Assembly: GCF_023065955.2 (NCBI RefSeq)
Contig: NC_079873.1
Location: 94,216,128 to 94,280,127 of the forward strand
DNA length: 64,000 nt
Direction: 5' to 3'
From: Ursus arctos
Taxonomy: Eukaryota; Chordata; Mammalia; Carnivora; Ursidae
A model generated the notes under the pieces. That model had not been told where the DNA came from, did no database searches, and worked only from the letters and a program-made list of their open reading frames with translations. Both the position numbers and the translations under genes were made by a program. Positions within the stretch are counted from its first letter, which is position 1. Each line of letters begins with the position of its first letter. Below, piece after piece: positions 1 to 64,000 of this stretch.

Positions 1-300
1 AGCTAAAGATACCAGGAAATTTGTTTGAAAAACCATTTCTCACAATCCTGATTCTTATCTCTATGGTCCTAGATTTAGTGGTACAGATTACCTAGCATTG
101 GGCAACTAGTTAAACTAGAATAACTACAGATGAATAGTTGAAGCTAGAATGTAGAAACCGCAGTACACTCAGCCAAAAATTCTTATTTACCATTGAAATA
201 ATACATCAGTTCCTTAATTTTCTAAGACCGGTTAGGGAAAAAGTCGTAAGGTAGCTGAATTCTTCAGCCCTCTATTGCAAAAAATTTCTTTACTTCGCCA
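1..300. repeat. End of the diverged ~138-bp satellite array
   Basis: Phrases of the satellite seen at 57.8-63.3 kb are present: 'gaaaaaccatttctcaca', 'attcttatct', 'ggcaactagttaaactagaat', 'aactaca' and 'gaatagttgaagctagaa'. A second, weaker unit follows ('agtacactcagccaaaaat', then 'attcttattt'-like DNA). Similarity fades by about 300, so this looks like one edge of the array. Confidence 0.7.
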
Positions 301-466
301 TCAAGCTATTCAGCAAGCCATAAGATTAAAAAGAAATAAAAACCAAGAAGCAAGGATCTAGCTATGAAGCCAAAATAACTCTCTGGAAGACCAGTCTGGC
401 AAGAGGGCAATAAGCACAGTTCGTATGAAACATTACAAAATGCCTTAAGAAGCACATAAAGTTAGA

Positions 467-659
467 GGCTCCTGGGGGACTCACTCGGTGAAGCATCTGC
501 CTTCAGCTCAGGTCATGATCCCAGGGTTGTAGGATCGAGTCTTGCATCGGGGTCCCTGCTCAGTGGGGAGCCTGCTTCTCCCTCTGCCTGCTGCTCCCTC
601 TGCTTGTGCTCTCTCTCTCTCTCTGACAAATAAATAAATGAAATCTTAAAAAAAAAAAA
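467..659 (+). mobile_element. Carnivore tRNA-derived SINE
   Basis: Head 'gctcctgggggactcactcggtgaagc' is a drifted form of the usual cctgggtggctcag start. A CT-rich stretch, 'aaataaataaat' and a 12-A tail follow. The same insertion is found at 63,707-63,899. Confidence 0.9.
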
Positions 660-775
660 GGAGTACATAAAGTTAGGTTTGGAACTAAATGCAAATATGA
701 ATTGTGCTATGTCTGAGTATGTACTAACCCAGAAAAGAGAGGTGGAATGAGTTATAAAGGGCAGTTTATTTATTT

Positions 776-1218
776 TTTAAAAAGATTTTATTTATTTATT
801 TTTGTGAGAGAGAGAGTGAGAACGAGTGGGGGAGAGGGGCAGAGGGAGAAGCAAACTCCCTGCTGAGCAGGGAGCCTGATGTGGGGCTCAATCCCAGGAC
901 CCTGGGATCATGACCTGGGCCGAAGGCAGATGCTTTGCCGACTGAGCCACCCAGGAGCCCCAAAGGGCAGTGTGTTAAAAAATTCTGGTTCAAGGTTGCC
1001 TGGGTGGCTTAGTCAGTGAAGTGTCTGATTCTTGAATTTGGCTCAGGTCATGATCTCAGGGTTGTGAGATGGAGCCCATATCTGACTCTAGGCTCAGTGG
1101 GGAGTCTGCTTGAATGTCTCTCTCTCCCCCTCTCCCTCTGCCCCTACCCCTGAGTGCAAGCTTCCCCCCCTTCTCTCTCTCTCTCAAATAAATAAATAAA
1201 TCTTAAAAAAAATTTTAA
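776..1218. mobile_element. Two SINEs, minus then plus
   Basis: A minus element (776-961) opens with the reversed tail 'aaagattttatttattt' and ends 'gccacccaggagcccc'. After 33 bases a plus element (995-1,218) begins 'ttgcctgggtggcttagtc' and ends in aaataaataaataaatctt and A's. Confidence 0.9.
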
Positions 1219-1828
1219 CATTCTGGTTCAGCATGGGAAATGTTAAGGTTTCTTTCATTTCAGCACAAAACAGTTTTCATTAAAATTGTCCTTACTCAAT
1301 GAAAGTAGGACCAGATAAAGGACTAGCTGGGTGATAGGGCAGTAGCCAACGAAAGTCACCTTGAAATGAAAACTGGATCACTCAGGAAAAGGGACAGGGC
1401 TTCTGTGACCTTCTCCTGAGCCTACACATCTATCTAGATGCTATATTCGGCTCAAAATCGATGGGCTCCGTTACTGATATATATCAGGTGACCCACGAAG
1501 CACGCTTGGTATTAAAAGTAGCAATATAAGTGAACCTGTGAAAACAAAGTCCATGAAAGCGGAAGCTCAAAATGTCCTGCTCCTTCTAATCGGCCAGAGT
1601 AAAACCATGTCTCCAGGAGAATGAGGCAGAAATTAAAAATGGAAGGAATGTGATTAATCTGGAGGCAATGGAATGTGGTCTTGAGAGAAAATAATAAAAC
1701 AATTCATAGCACAATTTTAATAAGACTTCCACCTTCCCATTCTGGTTGTAAAGAGTACTCCCAGAGGATTCTAACACAGATAGTTTTTTTTTTAATTAGA
1801 AATTAGAAAAAATTCTAACACAGATAGT
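1219..1828. other. Intergenic, nothing recognised
   Basis: AT-rich DNA without recognisable exon, RNA gene or named repeat. A short duplicated phrase ('attctaacacagatagtttt' at about 1,769 and 1,813) brackets an AT-rich patch next to the following SINE and resembles a target-site duplication. Confidence 0.5.
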
Positions 1829-2022
1829 TTTATTTATTTATTTATTTGAGAGAGAGAGAGAGAGCATGTTCACATGTGCACAAGTGGGGGAGGGCAGATG
1901 GAGAAGGGCAAGCGGACTCCAAGCTGAGCAGGGAGCCCGATGTGGGGCTTGATCCCAGGACCTGGAGATCATGACCTGAGCCCAAGTCAGACGCTTCACT
2001 GACTGAGCCACCCAGGTGCCCC
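1829..2022 (-). mobile_element. Carnivore SINE
   Basis: Reversed tail 'tttatttatttatttatttgagagag' at the left and 'actgagccacccaggtgcccc' at the right. The polypurine part is an (AG)n run. Confidence 0.9.
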
Positions 2023-2851
2023 CTCAACAGAGAAAGTTTTGATTCGATACCTTGAAATGTGGTGTTGCTCGAAGATTGAAGGGACTGTAAGTTTAACCCT
2101 AGACCCCCGCTGCTTAAGTAAGACTTGGAAGGAAGAAATAAATATTGAGTATTTGACTTTTAGAGTCTGGAGTATGTTACAATAATTAATATTCTCTTTG
2201 TGTTCCATTTCTAAAGCTTATAATTTGTTCAATTTATATTATCTCAGAATATGTACAAAAATGTCTTAAGCAGCAGGACCGAGTGAAAATATAAACCACA
2301 TTCTTATACCTTCTTTATGGAAAGAGTGAGAAAACAGTGCTTTTAAGCTTCGGCAAGTTTACACTTTGTGTATTCCGCCAAAGGCGAGGGAAAACCATTT
2401 GATTTCCATATCTTGAGCAGCCAGGGTTACTCCATTTTAACATAATCTTCCCAAATGCTGCCAAGAACATAGGTACCTTAGAACAACCAGGAAGATCATA
2501 CCACATGGTGCATTTTTTTACACCTGGACAAAAGAGAGCATTTTAACTTCTTTTTCTGAAATCCTACCTTCTCTCCTTTCCTGATGACTCCTCGGCATAG
2601 CTTTGTTTCTTCTCCACTCCACTGCACTGAATGAATCCAGCTTTGCTGTGAAAAAGCTGGCCTGAAAGTTATTCAGAACAGCCCTTCTCCGATCCAAGCA
2701 ACTCCTCTGGCTCGAGGAGGAAAGATTATAATGAGGGCAACGTCACCCAAATGATCCCTGGTGTGCACGGTGGGTACAGTGGCAGGTCGGGGATGTTAGT
2801 CAATTTAGGAGAGGATAAATTCTCTCAAAGCACCATAGCACCCAGCAGCCT
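2023..2851. other. Intergenic, nothing recognised
   Basis: Mixed-composition DNA of about 830 bases. The open frames are short and match nothing I know. No splice-flanked coding pattern was evident. Confidence 0.5.
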
Positions 2852-3061
2852 GGGGCGCCTGGGGGGCTCAGTTGGTGAAGTGTCCGCCTTTGGCTCAGGT
2901 GATGATCCCAGGGTCCCGGGATCGAGTCCCGCATGGGGCTCCCTGCTCAGCGGGGAGTCTGCTTCTCCCTCTGCCTCTGCCCCCCGCCTGCTTGTGCGCA
3001 TGCGCGCGCTCTCTCTCTCTGTCTCTCTCTGACAAGTAAATAAATAAAATCTTTTTTTAAA
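2852..3061 (+). mobile_element. Carnivore SINE
   Basis: Starts 'ggggcgcctggggggctcag' and continues with the canonical body and an (A/T)-rich tail at 3,036-3,061. A 'gcatgcgcgcgctctctct' stretch is the usual CT tract. Confidence 0.92.
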
Positions 3062-3121
3062 ACCCACCATAACCCTATTAAGTGTTCATTTCTCTTCCTA
3101 TTCTTTGTATTGTCTCAGTCT

Positions 3122-3516
3122 GTTTTTTTTTAAGAGTTTTTATTTATTTATTCGACAGAGAGACAGCCAGTGAGAGAGGGAACACAAGCAGGGGGAGTGG
3201 GAGAGGAAGAAGCAGGCTCCCAGCAGAGGAGCCTGATGTGGGGCTCAATCCCACAACGCCGGGATCACGCCCTGAGCCAAAGGCAGACGCCCAACCGCTG
3301 TGCCACCCAGGCGCCCCCTCAGTCTGTTCTTTTTTTTCAAGGTTTTATTTATTTATTTGACAGAGAGAGCGCGCACAAGCAGGAGCAGTGGCAGAGGCAG
3401 AGGGAGAAGCAGACTCCCCACTGAGCAGGGAGCTGGACTCGGGCTGATCCCCAGACCCTGAGATCACAACCCGTGCCAAACGCAGACACTTAACGACTGA
3501 GCCTCCCAGGCGCCCC
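3122..3516 (-). mobile_element. Two minus-strand SINEs at one site
   Basis: The first element (about 3,122-3,318) is bracketed by 'ctcagtctgtt'. The second (about 3,330-3,516) follows directly and is bracketed by 'tgtctcagtctgttct' and 'tgtctcagtcggttct'. The two insertions thus used the same target and are nested in time. Confidence 0.9.
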
Positions 3517-3739
3517 TGTCTCAGTCGGTTCTGGAACTTTCCTTCTGTAGAATATTACTTTGAAGTTGCCAAAACACCGGCTTCCTATTATACTACCTAA
3601 AATGTAGGCTATCCCCCACACCGGACTCCAGTACTTCATGGCAGGGCTTCTTGGCTCAAACTCTCTTAAATTGCCCCCGTCCCCCAAGATGTAATATCGC
3701 GGAGGCTCTATACACACCTGTTCATTTAACCAGTGTCAC

Positions 3740-3910
3740 CGCAGCATGGCAGTTTAGAGCAGGGACTTGACGTCAGACAGACATGAGGTGAAGGTTGAGC
3801 TCTGCCACTTGTAGGCGCAGGGACTCGGTCAAATCACTTACCCTCCCTAACGCTCAGTTTTGTCATCTGTAGGCTGGGAATAATTACAGTAACATAGATA
3901 AGACGTTTAA
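3740..3910 (-). mobile_element. MIR fragment
   Basis: The plus strand reads 'ctctgccacttgtaggc', 'caaatcacttaccctccc' and 'tcagttttgtcatctgta', which is the reverse complement of the MIR core. It is strongly diverged, as expected for this old mammalian SINE. Confidence 0.75.
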
Positions 3911-4192
3911 AGAACAAGACATGTTGTCCTGTCCTCACTTCTCTGTCCCAGGATGAGATGTAACATGGGCCAAATCATAATTCCTACCAAAATAAGCTAC
4001 ATACAGAAAGCTTATAAGATTATCTTAAGCTATTTTGTCCAGGTATCAGCTTTAAAATGGAAGCTGACTATAATTTAAAAACCAGGATTAATGATATCTA
4101 GTACCTTCAAGATCTGCCACATGCCACATGGATTAGGTATTTTATTTATTTCAACTACTCAAAATCATAGATTTAGAATACATGACCAGGGA
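3911..4192. other. Intergenic, nothing recognised
   Basis: AT-rich stretch between a MIR and a SINE. Nothing supported. Confidence 0.5.
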
Positions 4193-4394
4193 GGGGCGAC
4201 TGGGTGGCACAGCGGTTAAGCGTCTGCCTTCGGCTCAGGGCGTGATCCCGGCGTTGTGGGATCGAGCCCCACATCAGGCTCCTCCACTGGGAGCCTGCTT
4301 CTTCCTCTCCCACTCCCCCTGCTTGTGTTCCCTCTCTCGCTGGCTGTCTCTATCTCTGTCAAATAAATAAATAAATAAAATCTTAAAAAAAAAA
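4193..4394 (+). mobile_element. Ursid-type SINE with target duplication
   Basis: The body carries the 'cacagcggttaagcgtctgcc' head and the 'gcttcttcctctcccac' and 'cgctggctgtctctatctctg' tail. 'gaatacatgaccaggga' occurs on both sides, a clear target-site duplication. Confidence 0.95.
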
Positions 4395-4516
4395 GAATAC
4401 ATGACCAGGGAAGTGAAAAGCTTGAGTACACGAAGAATAATTCTGTTACAACTGCGGTGCTGTAGGGGGCACTGTGTGATTTGGTTTCACAACACACACC
4501 TTTAAAACAGGAATCC

Positions 4517-4625
4517 TGGGGCACCTGGCTGCCTAAGTCCAAAGAGCATGCAACTCTTGATCTCCAGGTTGTGAGCTAGAGCCCCACGTTGGGTGTAGAA
4601 ATTAAAAAAAAAAAAACTTAAAAAA
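4517..4625 (+). mobile_element. Short-type tRNA SINE
   Basis: This short carnivore SINE has a tRNA-like head ('ggggcacctggctgcctaag'), then 'gagccccacgttgggtgtag' and an A tail, without the long CT-rich region. Confidence 0.85.
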
Positions 4626-4920
4626 ATATGAGTACTGGCATGTTCTAAAATAATTTATTTCTGCCAAGATCTGGGTTTCAAGATACTATTTCTTGTTAAG
4701 GAATCAGAGTTCCTTGGTAAAATGGCTGATCTTAGGTCTGGAGCAGGAAAAGTAAAAGAGCTGCTCAGGAAATCTTTGCTCCAGAAAACAAGTACATGCT
4801 CAAAGACCAATAAGGCCACGCCAGAAGGGATCACGTGTAGTTTAAAGGCACTTTTATTAGCAAATGTGGGAGGCAACCTGACCATCAAAGAGAATAATCA
4901 AAATAAAGAATCAAAAATAA
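4626..4920. other. Intergenic, nothing recognised
   Basis: Contains a plus-strand open frame starting at 4,722 that runs on into the next SINE. No homology recognised and no splice context, so it is not called as a gene. Confidence 0.5.
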
Positions 4921-5130
4921 TGGGGGCACCTGGGTGGCTCAGTCGGTTAAGCCTCCAACTCTTGATTTTGGCTCAGGTCATGATCTCCGGGTCGTAAGAT
5001 GGAGCCCGGTGTTGGACTCCATGCTGAACATGCAGTTTGCTTGAGATTCTCTTTCCCTCTCCCTCTGCCCCTTCTCTCACTTGCAATCTCTCTCTCTCAA
5101 TAAATAAATAAAAATTTAAAGTCTTAAAGA
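4921..5130 (+). mobile_element. Carnivore SINE
   Basis: Starts 'tgggggcacctgggtggctc' and has the 'ccaactcttgattttggctc' variant. Ends in 'tctcaataaataaataaaa'. Confidence 0.92.
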
Positions 5131-5284
5131 ATAAAAAATAATGAAAATATAATCCACTGGCTTATAAAACACACGAGTCCATAATTAGAGAGAAAGGGAA
5201 AGACAAGACTGAGGGTCAGAAGGAAGAAGAGAGAGAGGTGAGAGGGCCAGGGATAAAAAAGAAAGATTTCTTTTTAAAAGAATA

Positions 5285-5640
5285 CCAGCTCAGCAGCGCC
5301 TGGTTTGCTGTCATTTGAGCATCCAACTCTTGATTTGGCTCAGGTCGTGATCTCAAGGTTGTGAGATCCAGCCCCACATCGGGCTCTGTGCTCAGTGCAG
5401 AGTCTGCTTGAGATTCTCTCTCCCTCTCCCTCTGCCCCTCCTTTATTTGAGAGAGAGAGAGAGAGTGAGTGGTGGGGAGGGGCAGAGGGAGAGGGAGAGG
5501 GAGAAGCAGACTCCCTGCCGAGCAGGAAGCCCGATGCGGGGCTCAATCCCAGGACCCAGAGATCACGACCAGAGCCGAAGGCAGATGCTTGCCCACCTGA
5601 GCCACCCAGGTGACCCATAAATAAATAAATCTTAAAATAA
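5285..5640. mobile_element. Minus SINE nested inside a plus SINE
   Basis: A plus element runs from about 5,285 to 5,441 ('cgcctggtttgctgtcatt' ... 'ctctgcccctcc'). It is interrupted by a minus element at 5,442-5,618 ('tttatttgagagag' ... 'ccacccaggtgaccc'). The rest of the first tail ('ataaataaataaatcttaa') follows at 5,619. Confidence 0.85.
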
Positions 5641-5659
5641 TAATGAAAAAATAAAAGAA

Positions 5660-5790
5660 TACCAGCTCAGATGGTGACTGCACTTATCATGGTGAGCACT
5701 GCATAATGTATAGAATTGTGGAATCACTATGTTGTACACCTGAAACTAATATAGCATTGTGTGTCAACTATGCTTAATTTCTTTAAAAAA
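5660..5790 (+). mobile_element. L1 3'-end fragment
   Basis: 'catggtgagcactgcataatg' and 'cactatgttgtacacctgaa' are the 3'-UTR phrases of mammalian L1. The same phrases occur near 27,050 and 30,080. Confidence 0.8.
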
Positions 5791-5970
5791 TGGATACCCT
5801 GGGAAAAAATTATATTATCGTTAATAAATTCTAGCTAGGCATTGTTGACTGTCACAGTCTCTAATCTTCAAAAAATAAAAAATATAGAAATATAAGAAAC
5901 TGCCAGCTTAAAAAGGAGGAAAACAACATTAACATTTATGAAGTAGTCTTGTCAAAACAAACTTTTCTAA

Positions 5971-6155
5971 AATTTTATTTATTTATTTGACACACAGAGA
6001 GAGCACAGATGCAGGGGGAACAGCAGAGGGAGAGGGAGAGGGAGAAGCAGGCTCCCCGCTGAGCGAGGAGCCCTATGTGGGGCTTGATCCCAGGACCCTG
6101 GATCATGACCTGAGCCTAAGGCAGAGGCTCAACCAATGGGGCCACCCAGGAGCCC
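5971..6155 (-). mobile_element. Carnivore SINE
   Basis: 'aaaattttatttatttatttgac' at the left, 'ggccacccaggagccc' at the right. The body is canonical. Confidence 0.9.
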
Positions 6156-6934
6156 TTCCTGTCAAAATTTTTAACCTGAACTGATTCAGTTATGTTGATA
6201 GATCTACCCAGCAGTTGATGGGAAATACAGGAAATATGGGAACAAATTTAATGACACCATAATAAAACAGAGTAATCCAGGAGGTGGGACAATCTACAAG
6301 ACAACTTTTTTTTTTTAAGATTTATTTATTCATTTGACAGGGAGAGCAAGAAAGCGCAAGAAGGGGGAGCAGCAGAGGGCAGAGGGAGAAGCAGACTCCA
6401 CCCTGAGCAAGGAGCCCGACACGGGACTCCATCCCAGGACCCCGCGATCATGACCTGAGCCAAAGGCAGACGCCTAACCATCTGAGCCACCCAGGTGCCC
6501 CAAAACAACTTTTTAAAAAGCCAATGTCATAAGAAAGGTGGGAAATAGATGTATCATAGATTAAAAAACCTGAAGAGATGTAATATCTAAATACAACATA
6601 AATGTGATGCATGACCTACTTATTCTAAAAACAGCTATAAAAGACATTTGGGACAATTGGGGAAATTTGAATATAGATTAGGTGTATGATGCTATTATGA
6701 CATTATTAATTGTTTTAGATGTAGCAATAGCATTGTGGTTATGAAGGAACATTTCCTTTTTGAAGGAGATGTCTGATGGAAATATTTAGAGTTACAATTG
6801 TCATGACAATTAACTTATTTTCACAAGGTTTAGGAGACAGACAGAAAACAAATACGACATTTAATTAAAAAAATATATATAGGTGAAGGATGTGCCAGGG
6901 TCATAATCCTAGTATTCCTTCATTTTTCCTATTT
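6156..6934 (+). mobile_element. Old interspersed repeat split by a SINE
   Basis: A minus SINE (6,309-6,500) interrupts an older sequence. Phrases on each side ('ggtgggacaatctacaagac' before; 'gggacaattggggaaatttg' and 'gtagcaatagcattgtggtt' after) belong to a widespread mammalian repeat whose family name I cannot assign with certainty. No coding content. Confidence 0.55.
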
Positions 6935-7131
6935 TTTTAAAAGATTTTATTTATTCATTTGACAGAGAGAGAGAGAGACAGCCAGCGAGAGAGGGAACAC
7001 AGGCAGGGGGAGTGGGAGAGGAAGAAGCAGGCTCCCAGCTGAGGACCCTGATGCGGGGCTCGATCCCAGGACTCTGGGATCACGTCCTGAGCCGAAGCAG
7101 ATGCTTAACAACTGAGCCACCCAGGCGCCCC
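6935..7131 (-). mobile_element. Ursid-type SINE
   Basis: Reversed tail, 'gacagccagcgagagaggga' and 'ctgagccacccaggcgccc' mark a minus-strand ursid-type element. Confidence 0.93.
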
Positions 7132-7769
7132 TTTCCTGAGTATTTGAAATGATTTGACAATAAAAATAAATGAGGAAAAGAAAGGATATAAAAATAAGTA
7201 TTTCCAGAGATGGTATACGGTCCCATCATAAAATTCATTTTCAAGAAAATTATATAAAATGTCGCTAATACTTGTAATACATTTAAGGGGATTTCTAAAT
7301 AAATTTGAGGACTTAGTTAAGCACCAGATTTATGTTCTGCAAATTATACACCCCAACAAAGTTACTCTTGTGCCTGGGGAAGTCGGTAGACTATACTGGT
7401 TAAAACAGGTAGAGGCAGGATCACTAAAAAGCTTCTAAGGGTTTGCTCTTGACAGAGAACCCAAGCAAATCCAGCAGAAATATTGCATATAGCTAGTACC
7501 TGTCATCTCACATGATTATACCCATCAAATTTCTGGAGGGAAGGATAGAAATGAAAAACATCAGGACTATAAAACCAAAGAGAAAATCACTTCTCCAAAG
7601 AGATCCAGTACAACCATTACCTAATCTTACCTTTTCCCGTGCAGGGTTGAGATAGACAGGAAGCATGATAAATACCTTTTATTTCATGCTTAATATTTAC
7701 TGTGGCTAGTAAAACAAAATACTTATTAGCAAGTGTTCCTCAGCTAAATAATTAGCAAACCTTCTTATT
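7132..7769. other. Intergenic, nothing recognised
   Basis: About 640 bases of AT-rich DNA without recognisable repeat, exon or RNA gene. Confidence 0.5.
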
Positions 7770-7935
7770 TTTTTTTTAAGACTGATTTATTTATTTATTT
7801 GAGAGACACAGAGAGAGAACAGAGGGAGAGTGAGAGGGAGAAGCAGACTCCCCATGAACAGAGAGCCCCATGCAGGCCTCGATCCCAGGACCTCCGGATC
7901 ATGACCTGAGCGGAAGGCAGGCACTTGACTGACAT
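7770..7935 (-). mobile_element. 5'-truncated SINE
   Basis: Typical tail and body, but the sequence stops at 'cacttgactgacataag' and the tRNA-like head is missing. 'ataattagcaaaccttc' before and 'gtaattagcaaaccttc' after form the target duplication. Confidence 0.88.
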
Positions 7936-8400
7936 AAGTAATTAGCAAACCTTCCGATAAGCAATAGGTACAAAGCAAACATGGATGCTGAAAGTGGAAT
8001 GTAGTAGTTACATGTTCATGCTAACATTGAAAATTGCTTATATTTGAGATGTGCAATTTAAAATGGTAAATGATTTTTTTTTAAATCCCAATCAACACCT
8101 GGCGGCAAGGCCTGCACTCTATCACAAGGTCTGAAGCATGTCATGAAATGATTAAATATAATGAGAATTTCCTCCGTTAGGTAATTAGGGACTTATCACT
8201 AGGTTCAATTCAGTCACAAACACAAGGGGCAATAAAATTTAAAGCAAACATCGTTCTGTCTCTATTGAAAATGTTAAGATTCTTCTTTTATGCACCAAAA
8301 GATTTACCTACTCAGGTTAGTAGAAAAATGTCTACATTTCCAGAGCCCCACATCAGGGGTGCTGTATCCCAGGATAAGCAGGTCTGAGAACAAAATTAGA

Positions 8401-8442
<42 letters not shown>

Positions 8443-8590
8443 CACTTGTGCACGCAGTTTGGTTTTGTAAGCCATTTGACTTTGAATGGGTGTGATGTTC
8501 AGAACAACCAATGTGAAATTAACAGTTATGAAAGCACTTTGAAAAGTGAAGTCCTCACACACTTTGGGTACAAAAATTTTATTTAGTGTC
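7936..8590. other. Intergenic with a (TG)n microsatellite
   Basis: Unclassified DNA. A TG run of about 18 units lies at 8,404-8,440. It supports overlapping open frames on both strands that are only the repeat read as Val-Cys or Thr-His. Confidence 0.6.
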
Positions 8591-8794
8591 GGGGCGCCTG
8601 GGTGGCTCAGTCATTAAGCGTCTGCCTTCGGCTCAGGGCGTGATCCCGGAGTTCTGGGATCGAGCCCCACATCAGGCTCCTCCACTGGGAGCCTGCTTCT
8701 TCCTCTCCCACTCCCCCTGCCTGTGTTCCCTCTCTCGCTGGCTGTCTCTATCTCTGTCAAATAAATAAATAAAATCTTAAAAAAAAAAAAAAGA
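8591..8794 (+). mobile_element. Ursid-type SINE
   Basis: 'ggggcgcctgggtggctcag' head, ursid-type body, 'aaataaataaataaaatctt' and a long A tail. Confidence 0.95.
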
Positions 8795-9245
8795 CTACAT
8801 ATGTTAGCGGACTGGAGAGAGAAACTTCCCTCGCTGGCTCTGAGAAAGTAAGCTACAATGATGTGAGATTGCCTATGGTGAGGGCCCCACAGCAAGGAAT
8901 TTCAGGCAGCTTCTAGAAGCTGAGAGTGGCCTTTGGCAGATAGGCAGCTAACAAATAGGGACGTTAGTCCTAAAACCACAAGGAAATGAATTCTGCCAAC
9001 AACTCAAATGAGTTTGGGAGTAGATGCTTCCTTAGTCAAGACTCCAGATAAAAACATGGCCTGACTGACACCTTGATGACAGGCTGTGAGACCCTGAATA
9101 GGGGACCTAGCAAAGCTATGCCCATACTCCTGACACAAAGAAACTATGATATAATAAATTTCTGTTGGTTTAAGCAGCTACGTTTCTGGTAATTTGTTAA
9201 CATGGAAATAGAAACTTGTTAACATGGCAATAGAAAACTAACACA
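8795..9245. other. Intergenic, nothing recognised
   Basis: Moderately GC-balanced DNA. Nothing supported. Confidence 0.45.
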
Positions 9246-9470
9246 CACGGGCGCCTGCATGGCTCAGTCGTTAAGCATCTGCCTTCAGCTCAGGGCGTGA
9301 TCCCAGGGTCTTGGGATCCAGCCCCGCATCGGGCTCCCTGCTCCGTTGGAAGCCTGCTTCCTCCTCTCCCACTTGCCCTGCTTGTGTTCCCTCTCTCGCT
9401 GCCTGTCTCTCTCTCTCTGTCAAACAAACAAATAAATAAATAAATAAATAAGATCTTTAAAAAAGAGGAA
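9246..9470 (+). mobile_element. Ursid-type SINE
   Basis: 'gggcgcctgcatggctcagt' head and a long (AAAT)n tail. 'aactaacacacac' before and 'gctaacacacaag' after suggest its target duplication. Confidence 0.92.
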
Positions 9471-9716
9471 AGAAAGCTAACACACAAGGTGCAATGGGCT
9501 GAGCCAAAGTCTAGCTGTATGGATGTGAAAGGCCTGAATTCCCTGTCATTATCTGGATCAGGGAAGGCAAACAAGTTTCATCCCCTCTTCCTATGCCTGC
9601 TAGTGCCACTCTCTGGAGTGTCTTGGGGTAGATGGAATAGTTGACCAGAGATGTCCATGCCCAAATCCCTGTATCCTGTGAATATGTTACGTTATATACC
9701 AAAAAAGGACTTGGCA

Positions 9717-11435: not shown

Positions 11436-11440
11436 CTAAA

Positions 11441-12700: not shown

Positions 12701-12713
12701 TCATACCGTATCT

Positions 12714-53705: not shown

Positions 53706-53787
53706 CCAACGGTTCTCCTCCAAGTTCATCGACTTCCAGGCTGCGGCAAGCGGTGCCCTCTTGGCTGCTCTCGGGCGGAGGCTCCAT
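53706..53787 (-). CDS. RHOXF2: RHOXF exon 1
   Basis: ATG at 53,787 opens MEPPPESSQEGTACRSLEV then DELGGEPL, 27 codons plus one base. MEPP is the start of human RHOXF2, which supports this ATG. The GTGAGT donor begins at 53,705. Together with exon 2 it gives about 135 residues before exon 3. Whether the full gene is functional depends on exons 3 and 4. Confidence 0.82.
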
Positions 53788-54480
53788 GTCCAGAACGCCT
53801 CCACAGACTCGCGCGGCGGCCCGCGGAGACTCCGGGGTCCGGGCCTGTCTCTGTGCGGGGTGCGGTTTACTACGCCTCTACCTCAGCTTCAACGTCCGCG
53901 CGCTCTTAGACGCCGTCGATCCCCGTTACTTCCAACGGCCAGGTGTGTGGTGGGCGGGACTTGTCGGGGCGAGCACGAGGCCGGGGCGTGGCCACGAAGT
54001 AGGCGGAGCGTTTGCCGGAAGGGTGCTACCGCCAGGGGGCGCGCGCGCGGGGGGGGGGCGACAACTCCCGACTCCCGCGGGGCACTGCCTTGGCGTGGGG
54101 GGTGGTGGGTGGTGCCAGCCAGCCGGGGGCGGGGAAGGGGTGGGGAAGGAAACTTCCCACAGCTCTCCCGAGCCCTGGGAGACGCGTTGGGAGAACGTCT
54201 CGCCGCCTGCCCTCGCTGCACGCGGGTCGGTGCAGGGTTCTCGCCCTAAGCTCCTCCAGGGCGAGGGACGCAGAGGTAGGGCTGGAGAAGTTGCGGGGGG
54301 GCTTCGTGGCAGCCCCAGCACTGAAGCGACGGTATCCCCGTCGCCGTGTGAGCTCTGAGCACGACTCTCCCCTCCGGCAAGTCAGTGACCAATGGATGGG
54401 ACTCTGGTTGGGTTCCGTTCGCACCCAGAGTCCACGAACCGGGCTAGTGACCGGACGAAACGATTAGCTAGAGGGCTGCT
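53788..54480 (-). promoter_or_regulatory. CpG island upstream of RHOXF exon 1
   Basis: Very GC- and CpG-rich DNA with G runs ('gggggggg' near 54,050). Long open frames occur on both strands here (for example plus 53,237-54,358), as expected of such composition; they antisense the exons and are not called. Methylation control would be expected for a germline RHOX promoter, by analogy with other RHOX genes. Confidence 0.6.
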
Positions 54481-54861
54481 TGCTCTGGGTTTTTGCCATA
54501 CGCGCGGAAAGTGGAGCCCATCAAGCTCTCCTGGGCGCTCCGGAGCGGCAGCTTGAGGTTGGGTTTTACAGAGCACTGTGGGTGCTCGGATGCACGCTCT
54601 AAGAAACCCAAACCTCCCTCTTGCGATAGGAACAAATACCCCAGATTTGTATTAAGGAATTCACATCAAGAGTAGAAATGGAGAAACCTGTCCACTGTTT
54701 TGAGCATCCAAGAATGCTTGCGCTGCACGTGCTGGACGCGACTGTGGGGCTTACACCCTCTGCCTGCTGAGCTCCGCTTCCGCGCCCCCGCTGCAGGTCC
54801 TCTGCAAAAGCGCACGTGTTTCTGGGCTGGGCAGGTGCTGGGGACTTGGGTTAGTTCCCAC
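54481..54861. other. RHOXF upstream flank
   Basis: Moderate GC, nothing recognised. Confidence 0.45.
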
Positions 54862-55068
54862 TTTTTTTTTTTTTTTAAGATTTTATTTATTTATTTGACA
54901 GAGAGAGACAGCCAGCGAGAGAGCGAACACAAGCAGGGGGAGTGGGAGAGGAAGAAGCAGCCTCCCAGCAGAGCAGGGAGCCCCAGGCGGTGCTCGATCC
55001 CAGGACCCTAGGATCATCACCTGAGCCAAAGGCAGATACTTAAGGGACTGAGCCACCCAGGTGCCCCA
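54862..55068 (-). mobile_element. Ursid-type SINE with target duplication
   Basis: 'gttcccactttttt' occurs at both ends. Little-diverged body. Confidence 0.95.
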
Positions 55069-55677
55069 TGTTCCCACTTTTTTATTCTCCTCCACTTTCT
55101 CCTGTTTCTCCTCCTCCTCTTCGTCTTCCTCCATCTCCCTTTGTCTAGAACTGTCTTCCAGAGCTCTAGCTCTCCACTGATAAATATCAAATAAAGAAGA
55201 GCCAGGGCAGATTGAGGGCTCTGTTTCTCCCTTAAAGTGATGTTTTGCATAGTGTCCAATACCGCTAAATGACAGCCGGTGTGCACCCTGCTACTTCCCT
55301 CTGACTACAGTTAGGAAAAAAAATATATGTATATACCCAGTGCCCAATAACTTGCTGGACCTGGTGCGAGGAAAAGCTAACTTATACTCTGGTGAAAGAT
55401 CAGCAATCACGTCATGATCCGTATCCGAAAGACATCAGCATCCTAGTCCCTCAAGGAACAGATTAACTATTCAGTGCTGTCCTTTGGGATGGTAAGCTCC
55501 AGAGTCATCACTTCTTATAAACACCTTCCATTCATACAATCCAATTTTTAAGAAGTCCAATTATTTTGATGGTTTTCAATTTTACCCGTTTCTCAAGGAT
55601 GGGTGAAGAATTCATAGAATTTCGAGAATGATAAAAGTCATGTTTTTAACTGTGTCCCTATGATTTCTTTTTACTTT
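55069..55677. other. Intergenic, nothing recognised
   Basis: Includes a (CTC)n-like pyrimidine patch at 55,085-55,135 that gives a Glu-rich shadow frame on the minus strand. Confidence 0.5.
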
Positions 55678-55872
55678 TTAAAAAAAGATTTCATTTATTT
55701 ATTTGTCAGAAAGAGAGAATGAGAGAGAGCAGAGGGAGTGGCAGGCAGAGGCAGAGGGAGAAGCAGGCTCCCTGCCAAGCAAGGAGCCCAATGTGGGACT
55801 CGAGCCCGGGGCCCTGGGATCATGACCAGAGCCGAAGGCAGACGCCTAACGACTGAGCCACCCAGGTACCCC
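55678..55872 (-). mobile_element. Carnivore SINE
   Basis: 'aaaaaaagatttcatttattt' at the left, 'ctgagccacccaggtacccc' at the right. Confidence 0.92.
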
Positions 55873-56035
55873 ACAATTCTTATTTTTTTAAATATCCAGT
55901 GAATAATGTAGATAATGACAGTTACACGGAGAGATTTAAATAGAATTAACCATATAAAAGCAGAATAAATATTTGAAGCCAAAAGGCTAAAAACATATTT
56001 TTCTTACGTATTAGTCTTAATCAGAACCACAATGA

Positions 56036-56240
56036 GGGGCACCTGGGTGGCTCAGTCGTTAAGCGTCTGCCTTCAGCTCAGGGCATGGTACCGGGGTCCT
56101 GGGATCGAGCTCCTCATCCAGCTCCCCGCTCCGCTGGGAGCCTGCTTCTCCCTCTCCCACTCCCCCTGCTTGTGTTCCCTCTCTCGCTGGCTGTCTCTCT
56201 CTCTCTGTCAAATAAATAAATAAAATCTTAAAAAAAAATA
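56036..56240 (+). mobile_element. Ursid-type SINE with target duplication
   Basis: Bracketed by 'aaccacaatgag' and 'aaccacaacgag'. It is inserted at the junction with the following L1. Confidence 0.93.
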
Positions 56241-56244
56241 AAAA

Positions 56245-57310
56245 CCACAACGAGATACTGTTTCACACCCAGGAGGATGACTATTATCCACAAAATAGAA
56301 AATAAGAGGTGTTGGTAAGGATGTGGAGAAGTTGGAACCCTGTGCATTACTGGTGGGGATGTAAATGGTGTAGTCACTGTGGAAAATGGTATGGCAGTTC
56401 CTCAAACACTTAGTCAGAATTACCATATGATCCAGCAATTCCACTTCTGGGTATACAACCCAAAGAACTGAGAGCAGGGACTTGAACAGATATCTGTATA
56501 CACCTGTTCAGAGCAGCATTATTCACAATAGCTGAAAGATGGAAACAACCCAAATGTCCGCTGATGGATGAATGGGTAAATAAAATGTGGTATATACATA
56601 CAATAAAATATTATTCAGCCTTAAAAAGGAATGAAATTCTGACACATGCTACAACATGGATGAACCTTGAAGGAATCAAGCTAAGTGAAATAAACCAGAC
56701 ACGAAAAGACAAATATTGAATGATTCCATTTATCTGTGATACCTGGAGTAGTTCAATTTGTAGAAACAGAAATTAGGGGCGCCTGGGTGGCTCAGTCGGT
56801 TGGGCGTCTGCCTTCGTCTCGGGTCATGACCCCAGAGTCCCGGGATCAAGCCCCGCATCGGGCTCCTTGCTCAGTGGGGAGTTTGCTTCTCCCTCTGCCC
56901 CCCCACTTGCTTGTGCTCGCTCTCTCTCTCACTCTTCAAATAAATAAAATCTTTAAAAAGGAAGGAAGGAAGGAAGGAAGGAAGGAAGGAAGGAAGAAAG
57001 GGAAAGTAGAATGGTAAGGGCACCTGTTGGTTCAGTCGGTGGGGCATGGAACTCTTGATCTTGGGGTTGTGAGTTCAAGCCCCATGTTGGATGTAGAGAT
57101 TACTTAAAATCTTCAAAAGAAAGAAAGAAAGAGAAAATAGAACGGTAGTTTCCCAGGGTCTGGGAGAAGTGGTACTGGGGAGCTATTGTTTAATGGGTAT
57201 GGAGTCTCAGTTTGGGAAGATGAAAAAGTTCTGGAGATGGATGGTGGTGATGGTTGGACAACAATGTGAATGCACTTCATGTCGCCAAACTGCACCCATA
57301 AAAATGGTTA
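56245..57310 (+). mobile_element. L1 3' end with SINEs and a (GGAA)n tract
   Basis: L1 phrases: 'atgtggagaagttggaaccc', 'ccagcaattccacttctggg' and 'gtggtatatacatacaat'. Plus SINEs at 56,776-56,960 and 57,017-57,120 (short). A GGAA microsatellite of about nine units lies at 56,959-56,995. Confidence 0.85.
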
Positions 57311-57315
57311 AGATG

Positions 57316-57520
57316 GGGGCGCCTGGGTGGCACAGCAGTTAAACGTCTGCCTTCAGCTCAGGGCGTGATCCCGGCGTTGTGGGATCGATCCCCACATCAG
57401 GCTCTTCCACTATGAGCCTGTTTCTTCCTCTCCCACTCCCCCTGCTTGTGTTCCCTCTCTCGCTGGCTGTCTCTATCTCTGTCGAATAAATAAATAAAAA
57501 ATCTTTTAAAAAAAATGGTT
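57316..57520 (+). mobile_element. Ursid-type SINE with target duplication
   Basis: 'aaaatggttaagatgg' on both sides. Confidence 0.95.
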
Positions 57521-57582
57521 AAGATGGTAAATTTGCTTTATCTGTATTTTATGACAAAATAATAATAGTCTTATTTCTTTTA

Positions 57583-57591
57583 AAAAACATT

Positions 57592-57626
<35 letters not shown>

Positions 57627-57788
57627 TTTGAGAGAGAAAGTGCACAAGCCAGGGAAGGGGCAGAGGGAGAGGGAGAAGCAGACTCCCCGCTGACCGGGGA
57701 GCCTGATGCAGGGCTCAGTCCCAGGACCCTGGGATCATGACCTGAGCTGAAGGCAGACGCTTAACCGACTGAGCCACCCAGGAACCCC
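57583..57788 (-). mobile_element. SINE with long (TTTA)n tail
   Basis: The tail at 57,590-57,630 is about 10 TTTA units. Its right end borders the satellite array. Confidence 0.92.
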
Positions 57789-58061
57789 TATTAGTCTTAA
57801 ATCTTGTTGGAATAATGATTCTGTACTGTGGATATTGGAGAGATATCTAGAATAAATAGTTGAAATTAGGAGCTTAAATGTCGGTTCTTGTAGACTTCAA
57901 ATTCCTTTTTTTCTCGTGGTGGATTAATGAGTCAATAGCGCAGATGCATGATGGTACCTAGGTAACTAACTACCTAAAGAATATTAGTAGAAGGAGTTGA
58001 AGCCTTGAATTGGAAACTATTTCCTTCTTACTCTAGCTTTGTGTTTCTTGTTTTTCTTTTC

Positions 58062-58266
58062 TTTTCTTTTTTTTAAGATTTTATTTATTTATTTGACAGA
58101 GAGAGAGACAGCCAGTGAGAGAAGGAACACAGGCAGGGGGACTGGGAGAGGAACAAGCAGGCTCCCAGTGGAGCAGGGAGCCCGATGCGGGGCTCGATCC
58201 CAGGACTCCGGGACCACACCCTGAGCCGATGGCAGACGCTTAACGACTGAGCCACCCAGACGCCCC
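58062..58266 (-). mobile_element. Ursid-type SINE in the satellite
   Basis: Inserted in a satellite unit; 'tgtttcttgtttttct' and 'gtatttcttgtttttct' flank it. Confidence 0.93.
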
Positions 58267-58587
58267 TGTATTTCTTGTTTTTCTAACTTTATATTTCATG
58301 TTGAAAGAACTCATAAATCTGAAATGAATAGTGGTTCATAGGTAACTAGTTTACAGGAGATATCTGGAAATAGCTAGTAATGCTCGCTGTCAGGAAGCTA
58401 AAAAAGCCATTCTTCTCAAATGTAAACTCTTATTTTCTTTTGGAATAACAAGTTAGTACCATAGATATGTAGGGGGACCTAGATGATTAGTTAACAATAG
58501 ATAACTAGTGGTAACTAGAATAACTGGTCCAAGCTACAATCATTTCCTGTCTAAAAACCACAATCATTTCATGTCTAAATTCTTTTT

Positions 58588-58845
58588 TTAAAGTAGGCTC
58601 CACACCCAAGGTGGGGCTTGAACTCACGACCCCAGGATCAAGAGTCCGAAGCTCCACCAACTGAGCCAGCCAGGTGCCCCTCATGTCTAAATTCTTTTTT
58701 TTTTAATTCCTTGTTCTAAAAATGAGTTAATTGGGGGCACCTGGCTGGCTCAGTCGGAAGAGCATGGGACTCTTGATCTCAGGGTCGTGAGTTTGAGCCC
58801 CATGTTGGCTGTAGAGATTTCTAAAAAAAAAATAATAATAAACTT
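58588..58845. mobile_element. Two short-type SINEs, minus and plus
   Basis: The minus element (58,588-58,680) is bracketed by 'tcatgtctaaattctt'. The plus element (58,735-58,845) is bracketed by 'aaaaatgagttaattg'. Both cut satellite units cleanly. Confidence 0.92.
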
Positions 58846-58929
58846 GAAAAACAATAAAAATGAGTTAATTGTGTAGCATCCAGTGGGATTCTAGGTAAAC
58901 CAGAAGAAATGAGTTGTGAATATTCAGAT

Positions 58930-59590
58930 TTCTGGGGCGGCGAAAGAAAACTTTATGACCACAAGATGGCAGTAGGATACACAAGATTTATTTGGGTGAG
59001 GCTTTGACAGTTTTGTGGGAGGTCAGGGCTTGTGTCTGGAGGCTAAGGCTTGTGGTTGCCACCATTTGGAAGGGGGCTGTGGGGGGGAAGGCAAGTTAAC
59101 TCCTGGGAGAGAAGGGAATCGGCCGAGAGGGCCTCGCGAGTCTAGGCGATGTTATTTAGCAGCATGTTGGAGAGCGCCTGGGTCAAAATCACCAAAGGGC
59201 AGCAGTGGCTTGTGGTCTTTATGGCCCAGGGTTTATCTTATCTGTATGTTAGGCTCAATTTCATGGAGTATGTAAAGCAGCCGGGCTATAAATGGCTAAA
59301 AATGTGGTTATGGGGGGGGTGCCTGGTTGGCTTAGTGAGTAGAGCGAGCGACTCTTGATATGAGGGTAGTGAGTTTGAGTCCCACGTTGGGTGTAGAGTT
59401 TATTTAAAAATATATGTGGTCATGGTTATTTCAGATACTTTTAAAGCAATTGGATGTATAAAAATTTGAGTTTGGCTCCAGCAGGCTTTCAGGGTAATGG
59501 GTCTCAGCCTGAGGTAAAGAAATAAGACAACCTCGGGGTCAATAGACTGAGGTTATTTTTGGCTCATTTGTATAACCTACTCAAAGTCAT
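58930..59590. other. Non-satellite insert within the array
   Basis: Satellite phrases stop at about 58,930 and resume at about 59,600. The insert is GC-richer, with 'ccacaagatggcagtagg' and a short plus SINE (59,316-59,412). It has no recognised coding content; it may be an old LTR or other mobile element, family unknown. Confidence 0.5.
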
Positions 59591-60569
59591 CAAGCCAGAA
59601 AAAAACATCATCTTCTGAACCCAAATTCGTATTTCCTGTTGGAATAAAATATTAGCACTGGAGATAAGTAGTAATGCTTAAGCAATTACTTTACTAGAGT
59701 TAACTAGAAGTGACTCAGAAAATTGGCAAATCCAGAAAATTGAAAAATCACTCTTCTCAACACTAGCTTCTTATCTCCTTTGAAGAATGAGTTAATACAA
59801 GAGATAGTTAATGGTATCTAAGTAACAAGGTAAGCAGAGATATAAGGTGATCATGACGTTAGACCAGGAAATGGAAAAGAAATGATCTTCACGTGTAAAT
59901 TCTTCTCCGTTGTCGAATTAGTGAATTAGTCCAATACGGAATTAACCATACCTAGGTACCTATTTTATCAGAGGTATCTAGACGTAACAAGATGCACTGG
60001 TATATTGATGGTGTTGAAAGAAAACATTCTTCTCACTTCTAAATTTTCATATCTTTTTAGAATGTGGAAGTAGTACTATAATCAGCTAGATTTATTGTGT
60101 TTGGTTTATGTAGAGAATTATATACTATCTGAATGATGAGGTGAAGGCAGGGAGCTGAAAAACAGATACTTCTCAATTTTTTTCTCATTGAAGTGTAATA
60201 GTAATATAATTAGTGGTAATTGGGTAGCTGTTTAAAGACAACTGGGGAAACAACCAGAAAAGTAACTGAAATCCGGATGCTGAAAAGCAGGTTCTTCTGA
60301 AGTGCAACTTATTTCTTCTTGAAATAAGATATTGGAAAGGTAGGTAAATGGTAAATAAGTCACGAAGGCATGGAATGGTAGATAAAACTTAACTAGAGAT
60401 AACTAGATATAACTGGAAAACTTCCTGAAGCTCAAATGCTGAAAAACACATACATCTTATCTCTCAAATCTTTTTTTAAAGGCAGAATTAGTTATTGCTA
60501 GTAATAATTAGTGGTATATAACTACATCGTGTAAACTATGGCTATCTAGAGATAAGAATAATTAGTTAA

Positions 60570-60775
60570 GGGGCGCCTGGGTGGCTCAGTCGGTAAGCAG
60601 TTGACTCTTGATTTCAGCTCAGATCATGATCTCAGGGTCCCGGGATTGAGCCCCACATCAGGCTCCCTGATCAGCAGGGAGTCTGCTTGTGGATTCTCTC
60701 TCTCTACCCCTGCCCCCCGCTCTTGCTCTCTCTCTCCCTCTCAATAAATAAATAAATAAAATCTTTAAAGAAAAG
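60570..60775 (+). mobile_element. Carnivore SINE in the satellite
   Basis: Flanked by 'gaataattagttaa' and 'gaataactagttaa', which are the duplicated target in a satellite unit. Confidence 0.93.
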
Positions 60776-61495
60776 AATAACTAGTTAAATCTGTGGATAT
60801 GAAAAACACAACCGTACCAACTACAAATTCTCATCTCTTCCTGGAAAAATGAATTACTTCTGCAGATTCTCATTGTACTTTTGTAAATACTTAATTAGAG
60901 ACAACCAGAGATAATAAGAATAACTAGTTGAAGGCAGGAAGCTAAAAATCAAGTTCTTTGCAACTCTAAATTTACATGTTAGTGCCCTATATATCTGGTG
61001 GTACCTTAATCTTTTGTAACCTCGGGATAAATGATGATATTCGAATAATGAGTCAAAACCAGGACACTGAAGAAAAGTGGTTGAATCCAAGAATTTGATA
61101 AGAATTCTTCCCAACACTACCTTCTTATCTAGAGTGTGAATCATGAGTTAGTACTACAGATCAGTACTTATACCCAGGAAACTAGTTAATTGGAGAGAGA
61201 TATGTAAATGAAGCCAACGAGTGAAAACACATTCTTGTTATAACTGACTTCTTTCTCGTTAGCATAATCAGTTAGTTCTATATAACTAGTTGTACCTAGG
61301 AACTACCAAACTGGAGACAACTAAAGATAACTAGCGCAGAAGCTAGAAAACACATCCTTTACAACAATTTTAAATCCCTACTTCTTAAAAAAAAAAAAAA
61401 GAATGTGTACTCTAGATCAAATAGCTATAGTGGTACCTAGGTGGGTGATAAAGTTAACGGGAAATTACCAGAGGATATTTAAAACCAGAAATTGG

Positions 61496-61615
61496 AGGCA
61501 CCCGGCTGGTTCAGTGGGTAGAGCATATGATTCTTGATCTCAGGGTCATGCATTGGAGCCCCACGTTGAGGGCAGAGTGTACTTAAAAAAATTAAAATAA
61601 ATAAATAAAATAAGA
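61496..61615 (+). mobile_element. Short-type SINE in the satellite
   Basis: 'ggcacccggctggttcagtg' head and (AAAT)n tail. Confidence 0.88.
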
Positions 61616-62509
61616 CCTTGAACATTCATGAGTCACCACTCTAAGCTCTTCTCCTTTGGTATAAGAATGAGTTAGTACTATAGGCAGCTTGTGTACTTAT
61701 TTTACCAGTTAATTAGAGGCAACTGGATATGATTAGAAAAAGTATTTGAAGCCCGAGAGCTGAAAAACACAGCCTTGTAATACTTTGTTCTAATTCTTTG
61801 CTGGAACACTGCCTCAGAACTACAGAGCCTAGAAGCGAGACTATAGAGGTAGCATCTAAAAAACTAGCTCTCTATGGGTAACTGGAGGTAACTAGAATGA
61901 CTAGAGTAAGCCAGAAAAAAAAAAGCACTCTTCTCAACTCTAATCATATTTCTTGTTGGCATAATGCGTTAGTACTTTGACAACTCATGACACCTGGGCG
62001 ATGAGTAAACTACGGTTGTGATAATTAAAATAATTAGTTGAATCCAGCAAGTTGAAAACATGTTCTACTCACCTCTTCTTATTTCTCTTTGGGATAATGA
62101 GTTACCTCTACAGATAACCAGGTGATCAAAGGAACTAGTTAACTAGAAATAAGTGGAGATAAGTAGAAAAACTGGTAGAAGCCAATAACCTAAAAAACAT
62201 TTTATTCAAATTTAAATTCCTATTACCAGTGGAAAAATGAGTGACTAGTATGCTCATCTAGTGGCACCTAGGTCATTAGTTAAATGGAGCTAAGTAAAAG
62301 TAACCAGAATAAATATTTGGGACCAGGAAGTGAATCAAGACATTATTCTCAAATCCAACGTCTATTTCTTTTGATAATATTGAGTTAGTACTGTTGAGAA
62401 TAGTAGAAACTATTTACTAAGAGGTAGCTAGATATGCTGAGAAGAATAATTGAAGTAGGAAGTTGAAAAACCATTCGTATCACTAGCATGTATTAATTCT
62501 TACTATTTT

Positions 62510-63105
62510 ATTTTTTAAAGAGTTATTTATTTGAGAGAGAGAGAGAACACGAGCCAGGGAGAGGGGCAGAGGGAGAAGCAGAATCCCTGCTGAGCAGGGA
62601 GCCCAATGTGGGCCTCGATCCCGGGACTCCAGGATCATGATCTGAGCTGAAGGCAGACAACGCCTGAGCCGCCCAGGTGCCCCTAATTCTGACTATTTTT
62701 TGTAAAGATTGATTGATTGATTTGAGAGAGAGAGAGCATGAGCAGGAGGGGCAGAGAGAGGGAGAGTCCCAAGCAGACTCCACAACAAGCAGAGAGCCCA
62801 CTGGGGCTAGATCTCACCACCCCAAGACCATGACTGAGCAGAAACCAAGAGTCAGGGGCGCCTGGGTGGCTCAGCTGGTTAAGTGTCTGCCTTTGGCTTG
62901 GGTCATGGTCCTGGAGTCCCAGGATCAAGTCCCACATCGGGCACCCTGCTCAGCAGGGAGCCTGCTTCTCCCTCTGCCCTTCACCCTGCTCATGTTCTCT
63001 CTCGCTCTCTCTCTCTCTCTCAAATAAGTGAATAAATAAAGTGTTTAAAAAAAACAAGAAACCAAGAGTCAGTTGCTCAACCGACTACACCACCCAAGCA
63101 CCCCA
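62510..63105. mobile_element. SINE cluster: minus, minus, with nested plus
   Basis: A minus SINE (62,510-62,682) is followed by a second minus SINE beginning at 62,695. That one is split by a plus SINE (62,856-63,055) whose target 'agaaaccaagagtca' is duplicated. The rest of the second element ('accacccaagcacccc') ends at about 63,105. 'aattcttactattttatt' and 'aattctgactattttttg' flank the group. Confidence 0.9.
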
Positions 63106-63240
63106 ATTCTTACTATTTTATTTATATTTATTTATCCATCAGGTCATTTATTCTTGCTATTACTTATTTATTCTTGCCATTATTTCTTTATTTAGCACTA
63201 TAAATAGCTATTGTAGCTCGGTAACTAGTTTACTAGGGAT
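63106..63240. repeat. Satellite remnant before the repeat junction
   Basis: T-rich sequence with satellite words ('gctcggtaactagtttactag' region) leading without a break into the block equal to base 1. This continuity is what lets the satellite array bridge two 63.24-kb units. Confidence 0.65.
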
Positions 63241-64000
63241 AGCTAAAGATACCAGGAAATTTGTTTGAAAAACCATTTCTCACAATCCTGATTCTTATCT
63301 CTTATGGTCCTAGATTTAGTGGTACAGATTACCTAGCATTGGGCAACTAGTTAAACTAGAATAACTACAGATGAATAGTTGAAGCTAGAATGTAGAAACC
63401 GCAGTACACTCAGCCAAAAATTCTTATTTACCATTGAAATAATACATCAGTTCCTTAATTTTCTAAGACCGGTTAGGGAAAAAGTCGTAAGGTAGCTGAA
63501 TTCTTCAGCCCTCTATTGCAAAAAATTTCTTTACTTCGCCATCAAGCTATTCAGCAAGCCATAAGATTAAAAAGAAATAAAAACCAAGAAGCAAGGATCT
63601 AGCTATGAAGCCAAAATAACTCTCTGGAAGACCAGTCTGGCAAGAGGGCAATAAGCACAGTTCGTATGAAACATTACAAAATGCCTTAAGAAGCACATAA
63701 AGTTAGAGGCTCCTGGGGGACTCACTCGGTGAAGCATCTGCCTTCAGCTCAGGTCATGATCCCAGGGTTGTAGGATCGAGTCTTGCATCGGGCTCCCTGC
63801 TCAGTGGGGAGCCTGCTTCTCCCTCTGCCTGCTGCTCCCTCTGCTTGTGCTCTCTCTCTCTCTCTGACAAATAAATAAATGAAATCTTAAAAAAAAAAAA
63901 GGAGTACATAAAGTTAGGTTTGGAACTAAATGCAAATATGAATTGTGCTATGTCTGAGTATGTACTAACCCAGAAAAGAGAGGTGGAATGAGTTATAAAG
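63241..64000. repeat. Right copy of the 63.24-kb direct repeat
   Basis: Equals bases 1-759 apart from one inserted T and one C-for-G substitution. It includes the same SINE insertion (63,707-63,899) with the same tail length. Confidence 0.97.

Follow-up and report, generated by a model that had tools for sequence, protein, structure and literature searches.

Tandem amplification of RHOX homeobox genes on the X chromosome has been described in primates and in mouse. For example, human and chimpanzee RHOXF2 lies in segmental tandem repeats of 48.9 kb, of which human carries two, with at least six RHOXF2 in chimpanzee (PMC3214919). Another example is the mouse array of the Rhox2–Rhox3–Rhox4 cassette, of about 40 kb and with about eight or nine copies (PMC10531175, PMC4584094). 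In human, a partial duplication of NKAP exon 1 near RHOXF2, named NKAPP1, is used in the first exon of a spliced transcript (PMC4584094). This literature mentions RHOX amplification in carnivores in general terms (PMC10531175), and a match for RHOXF together with Ursus concerns diet and gene copy numbers (PMC11797053). The present analysis deals with a stretch of 64,000 nucleotides from the bear Ursus arctos (the window, C1:94,216,128-94,280,127, where C1 is a contig of 121,185,270 bp, one of 362 in a 2.42-Gb assembly), which carries a truncated RHOX gene (here RHOXF-A), the first two exons of NKAP and a piece of a second RHOX gene (here RHOXF-B). We regard it as highly probable that the window represents one complete unit, of 63,240 bp, in a segmental array arranged head to tail on the X chromosome, with eight RHOXF-A copies on C1 and five on a further contig, C320, and that this array likely arose from one microhomology join between NKAP intron 2 and RHOXF-B and was then likely multiplied by unequal crossing-over.

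Like primate RHOXF2, the bear locus holds an X-linked RHOX gene in large, highly similar tandem segments of varying copy number (PMC3214919). Unlike the primate repeat, the bear unit measures 62-65 kb or 33 kb, involves another RHOX gene and contains an NKAP fusion; its copies number 8-13, as against two in human and at least six RHOXF2 in chimpanzee, and its founding join shows a 4-bp microhomology, whereas flanking endogenous retroviruses (ERVs) were proposed for the primate case (PMC3214919). With the mouse array it shares the tandem growth of a RHOX cassette on the X, the incomplete copies and the assembly gaps, although the mouse cassette comprises three Rhox genes and the bear unit one truncated RHOX gene, accompanied by parts of NKAP and of another RHOX gene. 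It also resembles human NKAPP1 as a partial NKAP duplication near RHOX, but NKAPP1 is single copy in a long non-coding RNA, whereas in bear the copies of exons 1-2 accompany the full units, and coding fusions are predicted by public models. RHOX tandem arrays in mouse and primates are known; what is new is a bear array with its own unit and its own origin. No description of this RHOX–NKAP array was found in the open-licence PubMed Central literature (titles, abstract starts and passages; NKAP with Ursus gave none), although a description elsewhere is possible. The locus is a large carnivore case with readable edges and founding breakpoint, in which it can be asked whether the RHOX locus is duplication-prone by structure or driven by male reproductive selection. 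It also illustrates the way in which candidate NKAP fusion genes can arise as a family by duplication, and the incompleteness of the bear X assembly at the array bears on studies of copy number and of sex-linked markers.

Layout of the array and its probable founding junction

The initial annotation, made from the letters of the window, had noted that the window's start recurs at its end with two differences and with a short interspersed nuclear element (SINE) in both copies, and had proposed a tandem array with a period of 63,240 bp. The two end copies are indeed 99.74% identical, differing by a 1-base indel (61 / 63,302) and one substitution (552 / 63,793), and the SINE lies at about 471-659 in the left one. 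At the level of the assembly, not of reads, the sequence past the right copy continues as it does after base 760, since the locus C1:94,277,868-94,281,628 corresponds to window 1-2,260 at 99.87%; to this extent the refuting case named by the initial annotation does not apply. The 760-bp end segment has at least 13 full-length matches at 99-100%, all 13 on the plus strand, eight on C1 and five on C320 (unplaced, 273,451 bp); of the 46 matches listed, the remaining 33 cover only part of the segment, in most cases its SINE. Of 2,580 candidates, 40 were scored in this search, and the copy counts are lower bounds. Besides these markers, the assembly contains 13 sets of RHOXF-A exons and ten fusion junctions, which upholds the proposed array. 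The proposed period holds for the unit of this window and not for the array at large: successive markers are 61.9, 93.1, 33.4, 63.5, 33.5, 63.2 and 63.0 kb apart on C1, and 63.2, 33.4, 63.5 and 33.3 kb apart on C320, that is, mostly 61.9-63.5 kb or 33.3-33.5 kb. The single spacing of 93.1 kb covers 200 Ns at C1:94,029,928-94,030,127, taken as an assembly gap inside the array; an internal 30-kb duplication was discarded as its cause, because the spacing coincides with the gap.

Fully read were C1:93,880,001-94,080,000, 94,182,001-94,280,127 and 94,370,001-94,390,000, plus eight loci of 3.8 kb. The units stand head to tail in a single orientation, with identity above about 95% (97-99.8% for unit-scale homology in the stretches read), on the X beside NKAP and with a RHOX gene of open exons. 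That C1 is the X chromosome is indicated by its gene content, namely NKAP, RHOX genes and SOX3, which we take to be X genes; the best match to the SRY box outside contigs C2 and C196 lies on C1 and is taken as SOX3. Macrosatellites of the DXZ4 or D4Z4 kind have uniform units of few kilobases in tens of copies. Here the units measure 62-65 kb and 33 kb and 13 were found, so that the label "macrosatellite-like" had to be given up in favor of a segmental amplicon of 62-65-kb full units. A circular or wrap-around product, which the initial annotation had offered as a rival together with a contig repeating one locus at both ends, was rejected because the end copies differ and the genome runs on at both sides; the repeated contig fails likewise, as more units follow.

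Both outer edges of the array were located, 477,497 bp apart on C1, with the parental NKAP on the left and RHOXF-B on the right. Unit homology begins at C1:93,898,494, within the parental NKAP, between exon 2 (93,903,825) and a matched piece at 93,895,160, and it stops at C1:94,375,990, within RHOXF-B. Inside the array these two ends meet in the founding junction, which places the natural unit boundary at window 33,832. An 800-bp probe over the junction has ten full copies (six on C1 and four on C320), and each of its halves occurs alone at one outer edge; of the four junctions read, three agree at every base over 40 bp and the fourth departs by a single substitution. This pattern fits a single founding join followed by growth. 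In such a scheme, end-joining repair of a double-strand break, or a replication template switch, would have used the 4-bp microhomology to duplicate, once and in tandem, the segment that runs from within NKAP intron 2 into the 3' part of RHOXF-B, and the resulting near-identical units of more than 60 kb might then pair out of register, gaining and losing units by unequal crossing-over.

The three full units compared (65,146, 62,113 and 63,240 bp) show pairwise mismatches of 0.64, 0.74 and 0.59%. Eight distinct length differences of at least 100 bp were found among them, seven of which are SINEs (six present in the window's unit only, one in the second unit only), the eighth being a stretch of 3,353 bp in the first unit. 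Since the units differ in both substitutions and SINEs, the copies are distinct pieces of DNA. The short unit read (C1:94,182-94,216 kb, 33.5 kb) lacks 29.2 kb of the window and retains RHOXF-A. A probe over its junction gave four full matches, two on C1 and two on C320, of 2,703-2,708 bits; in view of these near-equal matches, one deletion seems to have spread afterwards, with short units alternating with full ones on both contigs. One unit would thus have lost 29.2 kb, and the short unit would have been propagated with a full one as a dimer of about 97 kb.

Gene content of the units

The content that the initial annotation had given to the unit (RHOXF exons 1-3, NKAP exons 1-2 and a RHOX exon 4) is all present, on the minus strand, but exon 4 comes from the second RHOX gene and is broken by a SINE, and NKAP is truncated. 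Each of the three RHOXF-A exons has 13 matches in the genome (eight on C1 and five on C320). Exons 1 and 2 are open frames of equal length across copies, exon 2 is identical in all five copies read, and the stop flagged in exon 2 lies just past the splice donor in these five copies. Between RHOXF-A exon 3 and NKAP exon 1 no fourth RHOXF-A exon was found, the predicted homeodomain is incomplete, and the public protein P0019 carries no precomputed homeodomain. The RHOXF-A proteins of panda, sea lion and otter are likewise predicted to end before homeodomain helix 3, and because of this common ending the loss of helix 3 looks older than the array. Variable sites among the five copies amount to 4/490 in coding sequence, 6/779 in introns and 18/2,986 in the 5' flank; the 3' flank (193/2,161, with 496 gapped columns) is taken to differ in structure.

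As for RHOXF-B, the SINE in its exon 4 is present in all four array copies read and absent at the right edge of the array. Exons of this gene past the right edge had been predicted before that stretch was examined, and exon 2 was found there at C1:94,382,047-94,382,310 (E 7e-13). The right-edge exon 4 has a shorter start and, joined to the assumed exon 3, runs into an immediate stop, so that RHOXF-B may here be a pseudogene. A single gene made of RHOXF-A and exon 4, with NKAP in an intron, was considered and rejected, because the gene to which exon 4 belongs has its exons 2 and 3 beyond the right edge.

NKAP exon 1 in the window is 100% identical to the Ursus arctos NKAP-like models. Besides the parent, exon 1 was found five times on C1 and three times on C320, and exon 2 five and four times, respectively. 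NKAP residues beyond about 156 have no coding match in the window and, on C1 and C320, match only outside the array; the array copies lack the C-terminal NKAP domain (PF06047 in full-length relatives). NKAP fusion transcripts are predicted by public gene models: in five of these (P0001, P0002, P0003, P0004 and P0034) NKAP exon 1, in three cases together with exon 2, is joined to new exons. Across four copies, one of them the parent, exon 1 has no variable site in 369, as against 18 in 1,887 in flank plus intron, an invariance which may reflect gene conversion or chance; the parental NKAP was possibly converted by the array. The parental exon 1 (C1:93,906,342-93,906,719) does not differ from the array copies read and shares their 6-residue gap against relatives. 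On C320, an NKAP exon 1 (16,573-16,968) has 18 extra bases in the matched stretch, like the longer public protein P0003. A run of 74 N lies at C1:93,885,660-93,885,733, near the last NKAP exon.

Copy number and rival explanations

Several points weigh against the array as reconstructed here. The copy number is drawn from a single assembly, in which the array has at least one gap, and C1:94,080,001-94,182,000, C1:94,281,629-94,340,903 and most of C320 were covered by probes only. Past the right edge, RHOXF-B exon 3 has a weak match (C1:94,380,619-94,380,666, E 0.04) and exon 1 was not identified. Coding and intron sequence vary alike among the five RHOXF-A copies, so that there is no sign of coding constraint, which speaks against strong selection on the protein. 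In addition, C320 parallels C1:94.02-94.26 Mb, with two junctions 96,860 bp apart on both contigs, and a marker copy on one matches its counterpart on the other without a difference over 2.26 kb. From the common order, the near-equal spacings and the identical or nearly identical markers, C320 might be a redundant or alternative copy of this part of C1, the array on the X being real and the RHOXF-A copies about 8-9 and not 13; we give this a substantial chance, somewhat short of even. An SRY-like HMG box is present on C2:785,293-785,532 and C196:10,548-10,787 (same score, 89% to the human box), which indicates that the assembled animal is a male, and a male has one X, so that a second X haplotype is not expected. 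The presence of the box on two contigs, either a duplicated SRY or assembly redundancy, weakens this argument and in itself hints at redundancy. Among the listed copies of NKAP exon 1, none on C1 reaches the length of the first one on C320, and the marker at C320:38,293 has no exact C1 match among those compared, which also speaks against redundancy, although for allelic contigs both would lie within the gap in C1. The X thus carries at least 8 RHOXF-A copies, perhaps 13 or more. It might even be argued from the 200-N gap, the near-copy on C320 and the doubled SRY-like box that the assembler wrote one locus several times and that the animal has no array. Such a false duplication is very improbable, as the units differ by 0.59-0.74% in substitutions and by the presence or absence of SINEs, come in two lengths with a common deletion junction, and lie within a single contig, flanked at either end by a unique edge, and as two different isoform-X1 NKAP-like Ursus arctos proteins (P0001 and P0034) are found on the 121-Mb contig.

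Under the preferred reading, a genuine tandem array, the first duplication would go back to a microhomology join. Alternatively, recombination between such repeats (SINE, L1 or ERV) at the breakpoints could have produced it; the region is SINE-rich, and ERV-mediated exchange is the proposal published for primate RHOXF2 (PMC3214919). The parental breakpoints, however, have only TCTC in common and no alignment crosses them, and the similar pieces within 3 kb do not exceed a SINE in size, with the nearest about 0.6 kb off and none collinear across a breakpoint (no search was aimed at ERVs), which makes this origin very unlikely. With respect to the growth of the array, RHOXF-A is the only gene in both full and short units, and the likeliest object of selection, if any, would therefore be RHOXF-A dosage; the one hint of such selection, in the male germ line, is the retention of the gene in both unit types. 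A more far-reaching reading, which we consider unlikely, would see here an X amplicon in which the promoter-bearing 5' end of NKAP, a splicing gene, was fused to the RHOX locus and multiplied. The X would then supply many doses of a helix-3-less RHOX protein and also NKAP N-terminal fusion proteins, and the latter would act as competitors of full NKAP in the male germ line, in the manner of X-Y conflict amplicons; at the same time, the array would convert the parental NKAP exon 1.

Coordinates and minor observations

Table 1. Features of the window and positions of the marker copies (window positions unless a contig is named).
Feature	Position	Strand	Basis or remark
One full array unit, cut at an arbitrary point	1..63240		Mismatches of 0.593% and 0.741% against two other full units
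Left copy of end overlap	1..759	+	At least 13 full-length copies in genome
Right copy of end overlap, start of next unit	63241..64000	+	Next-unit identity from sequence past window edge
Founding junction: NKAP intron 2 (right side) joined to 3' part of RHOXF-B (left side), 4 bp shared (TCTC)	33832..33835		Parental edges and 10 genome copies
Stretch absent from short units: NKAP exons 1-2, founding junction, RHOXF-B exon 4	17359..46587		One short unit read; four matches to its junction
RHOXF-A exon 1, coding part	53706..53787	-	P0019 (Ursus arctos rhox homeobox family member 1-like)
RHOXF-A exon 2, first part of homeodomain	53213..53537	-	100% to P0019 over 95% of query
RHOXF-A exon 3 with stop codon	52516..52594	-	Predicted protein stops short of homeodomain helix 3
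NKAP exon 1, coding part	41792..42159	-	100% to P0001; E 3e-56 to human NKAP in PDB set
NKAP exon 2	39177..39257	-	Homology matches; later NKAP exons not in window
RHOXF-B exon 4 (homeodomain helix 3 region), SINE-broken	32398..32833	-	Homology matches
SINE in RHOXF-B exon 4	32605..32808	-	16-bp target site duplication at 32,589-32,604 and 32,809-32,824
Third exon of public NKAP-like fusion model P0001, RHOXF-B side of junction	31409..31529	-	AG and GT splice sites present; predicted
Fourth exon of P0001 with stop codon	30385..30420	-	Public model
SINE absent from array's first two units	4175..4393	+	Three-unit alignment
SINE absent from array's first two units	14283..14500	-	Three-unit alignment
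SINE absent from first two units and from short unit read	16458..16657	-	Unit alignments
SINE absent from array's first two units	21096..21354	+	Three-unit alignment
SINE absent from array's first two units	51719..51955	+	Three-unit alignment
SINE absent from array's first two units	57300..57510	+	Three-unit alignment
Marker copies on C1	93,930,739; 93,992,656; 94,085,739; 94,119,112; 94,182,606; 94,216,128; 94,279,368; 94,342,404	+	760-bp search
Marker copies on C320	38,293; 101,495; 134,868; 198,350; 231,669	+	760-bp search

Searches of viral contigs (one pattern) and of plasmids and phages (one 15-kb window query each) gave no match, and Pfam assigned a family to none of eight open reading frames of the window. 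To the right of the array, the half of the junction probe that comes from the RHOXF-B side recurs in inverted orientation (98%) at C1:94,435,905-94,436,307, another RHOX-like exon (45%) lies at C1:94,411,781-94,412,014, and a 77% match to part of the unit (C1:94,392,807-94,393,606) is perhaps an older duplication of the region. Partial NKAP-like matches were also found there, at C1:94,524,988-94,525,134, 94,421,767-94,422,114 and 94,537,211-94,537,462, one of which scores the same as the parental piece at 93,895,160. Finally, two tRNA-Lys (CTT) genes facing apart are predicted in the window at 58,602-58,676 (minus strand) and 58,738-58,812 (plus strand), with 61 bases between them.

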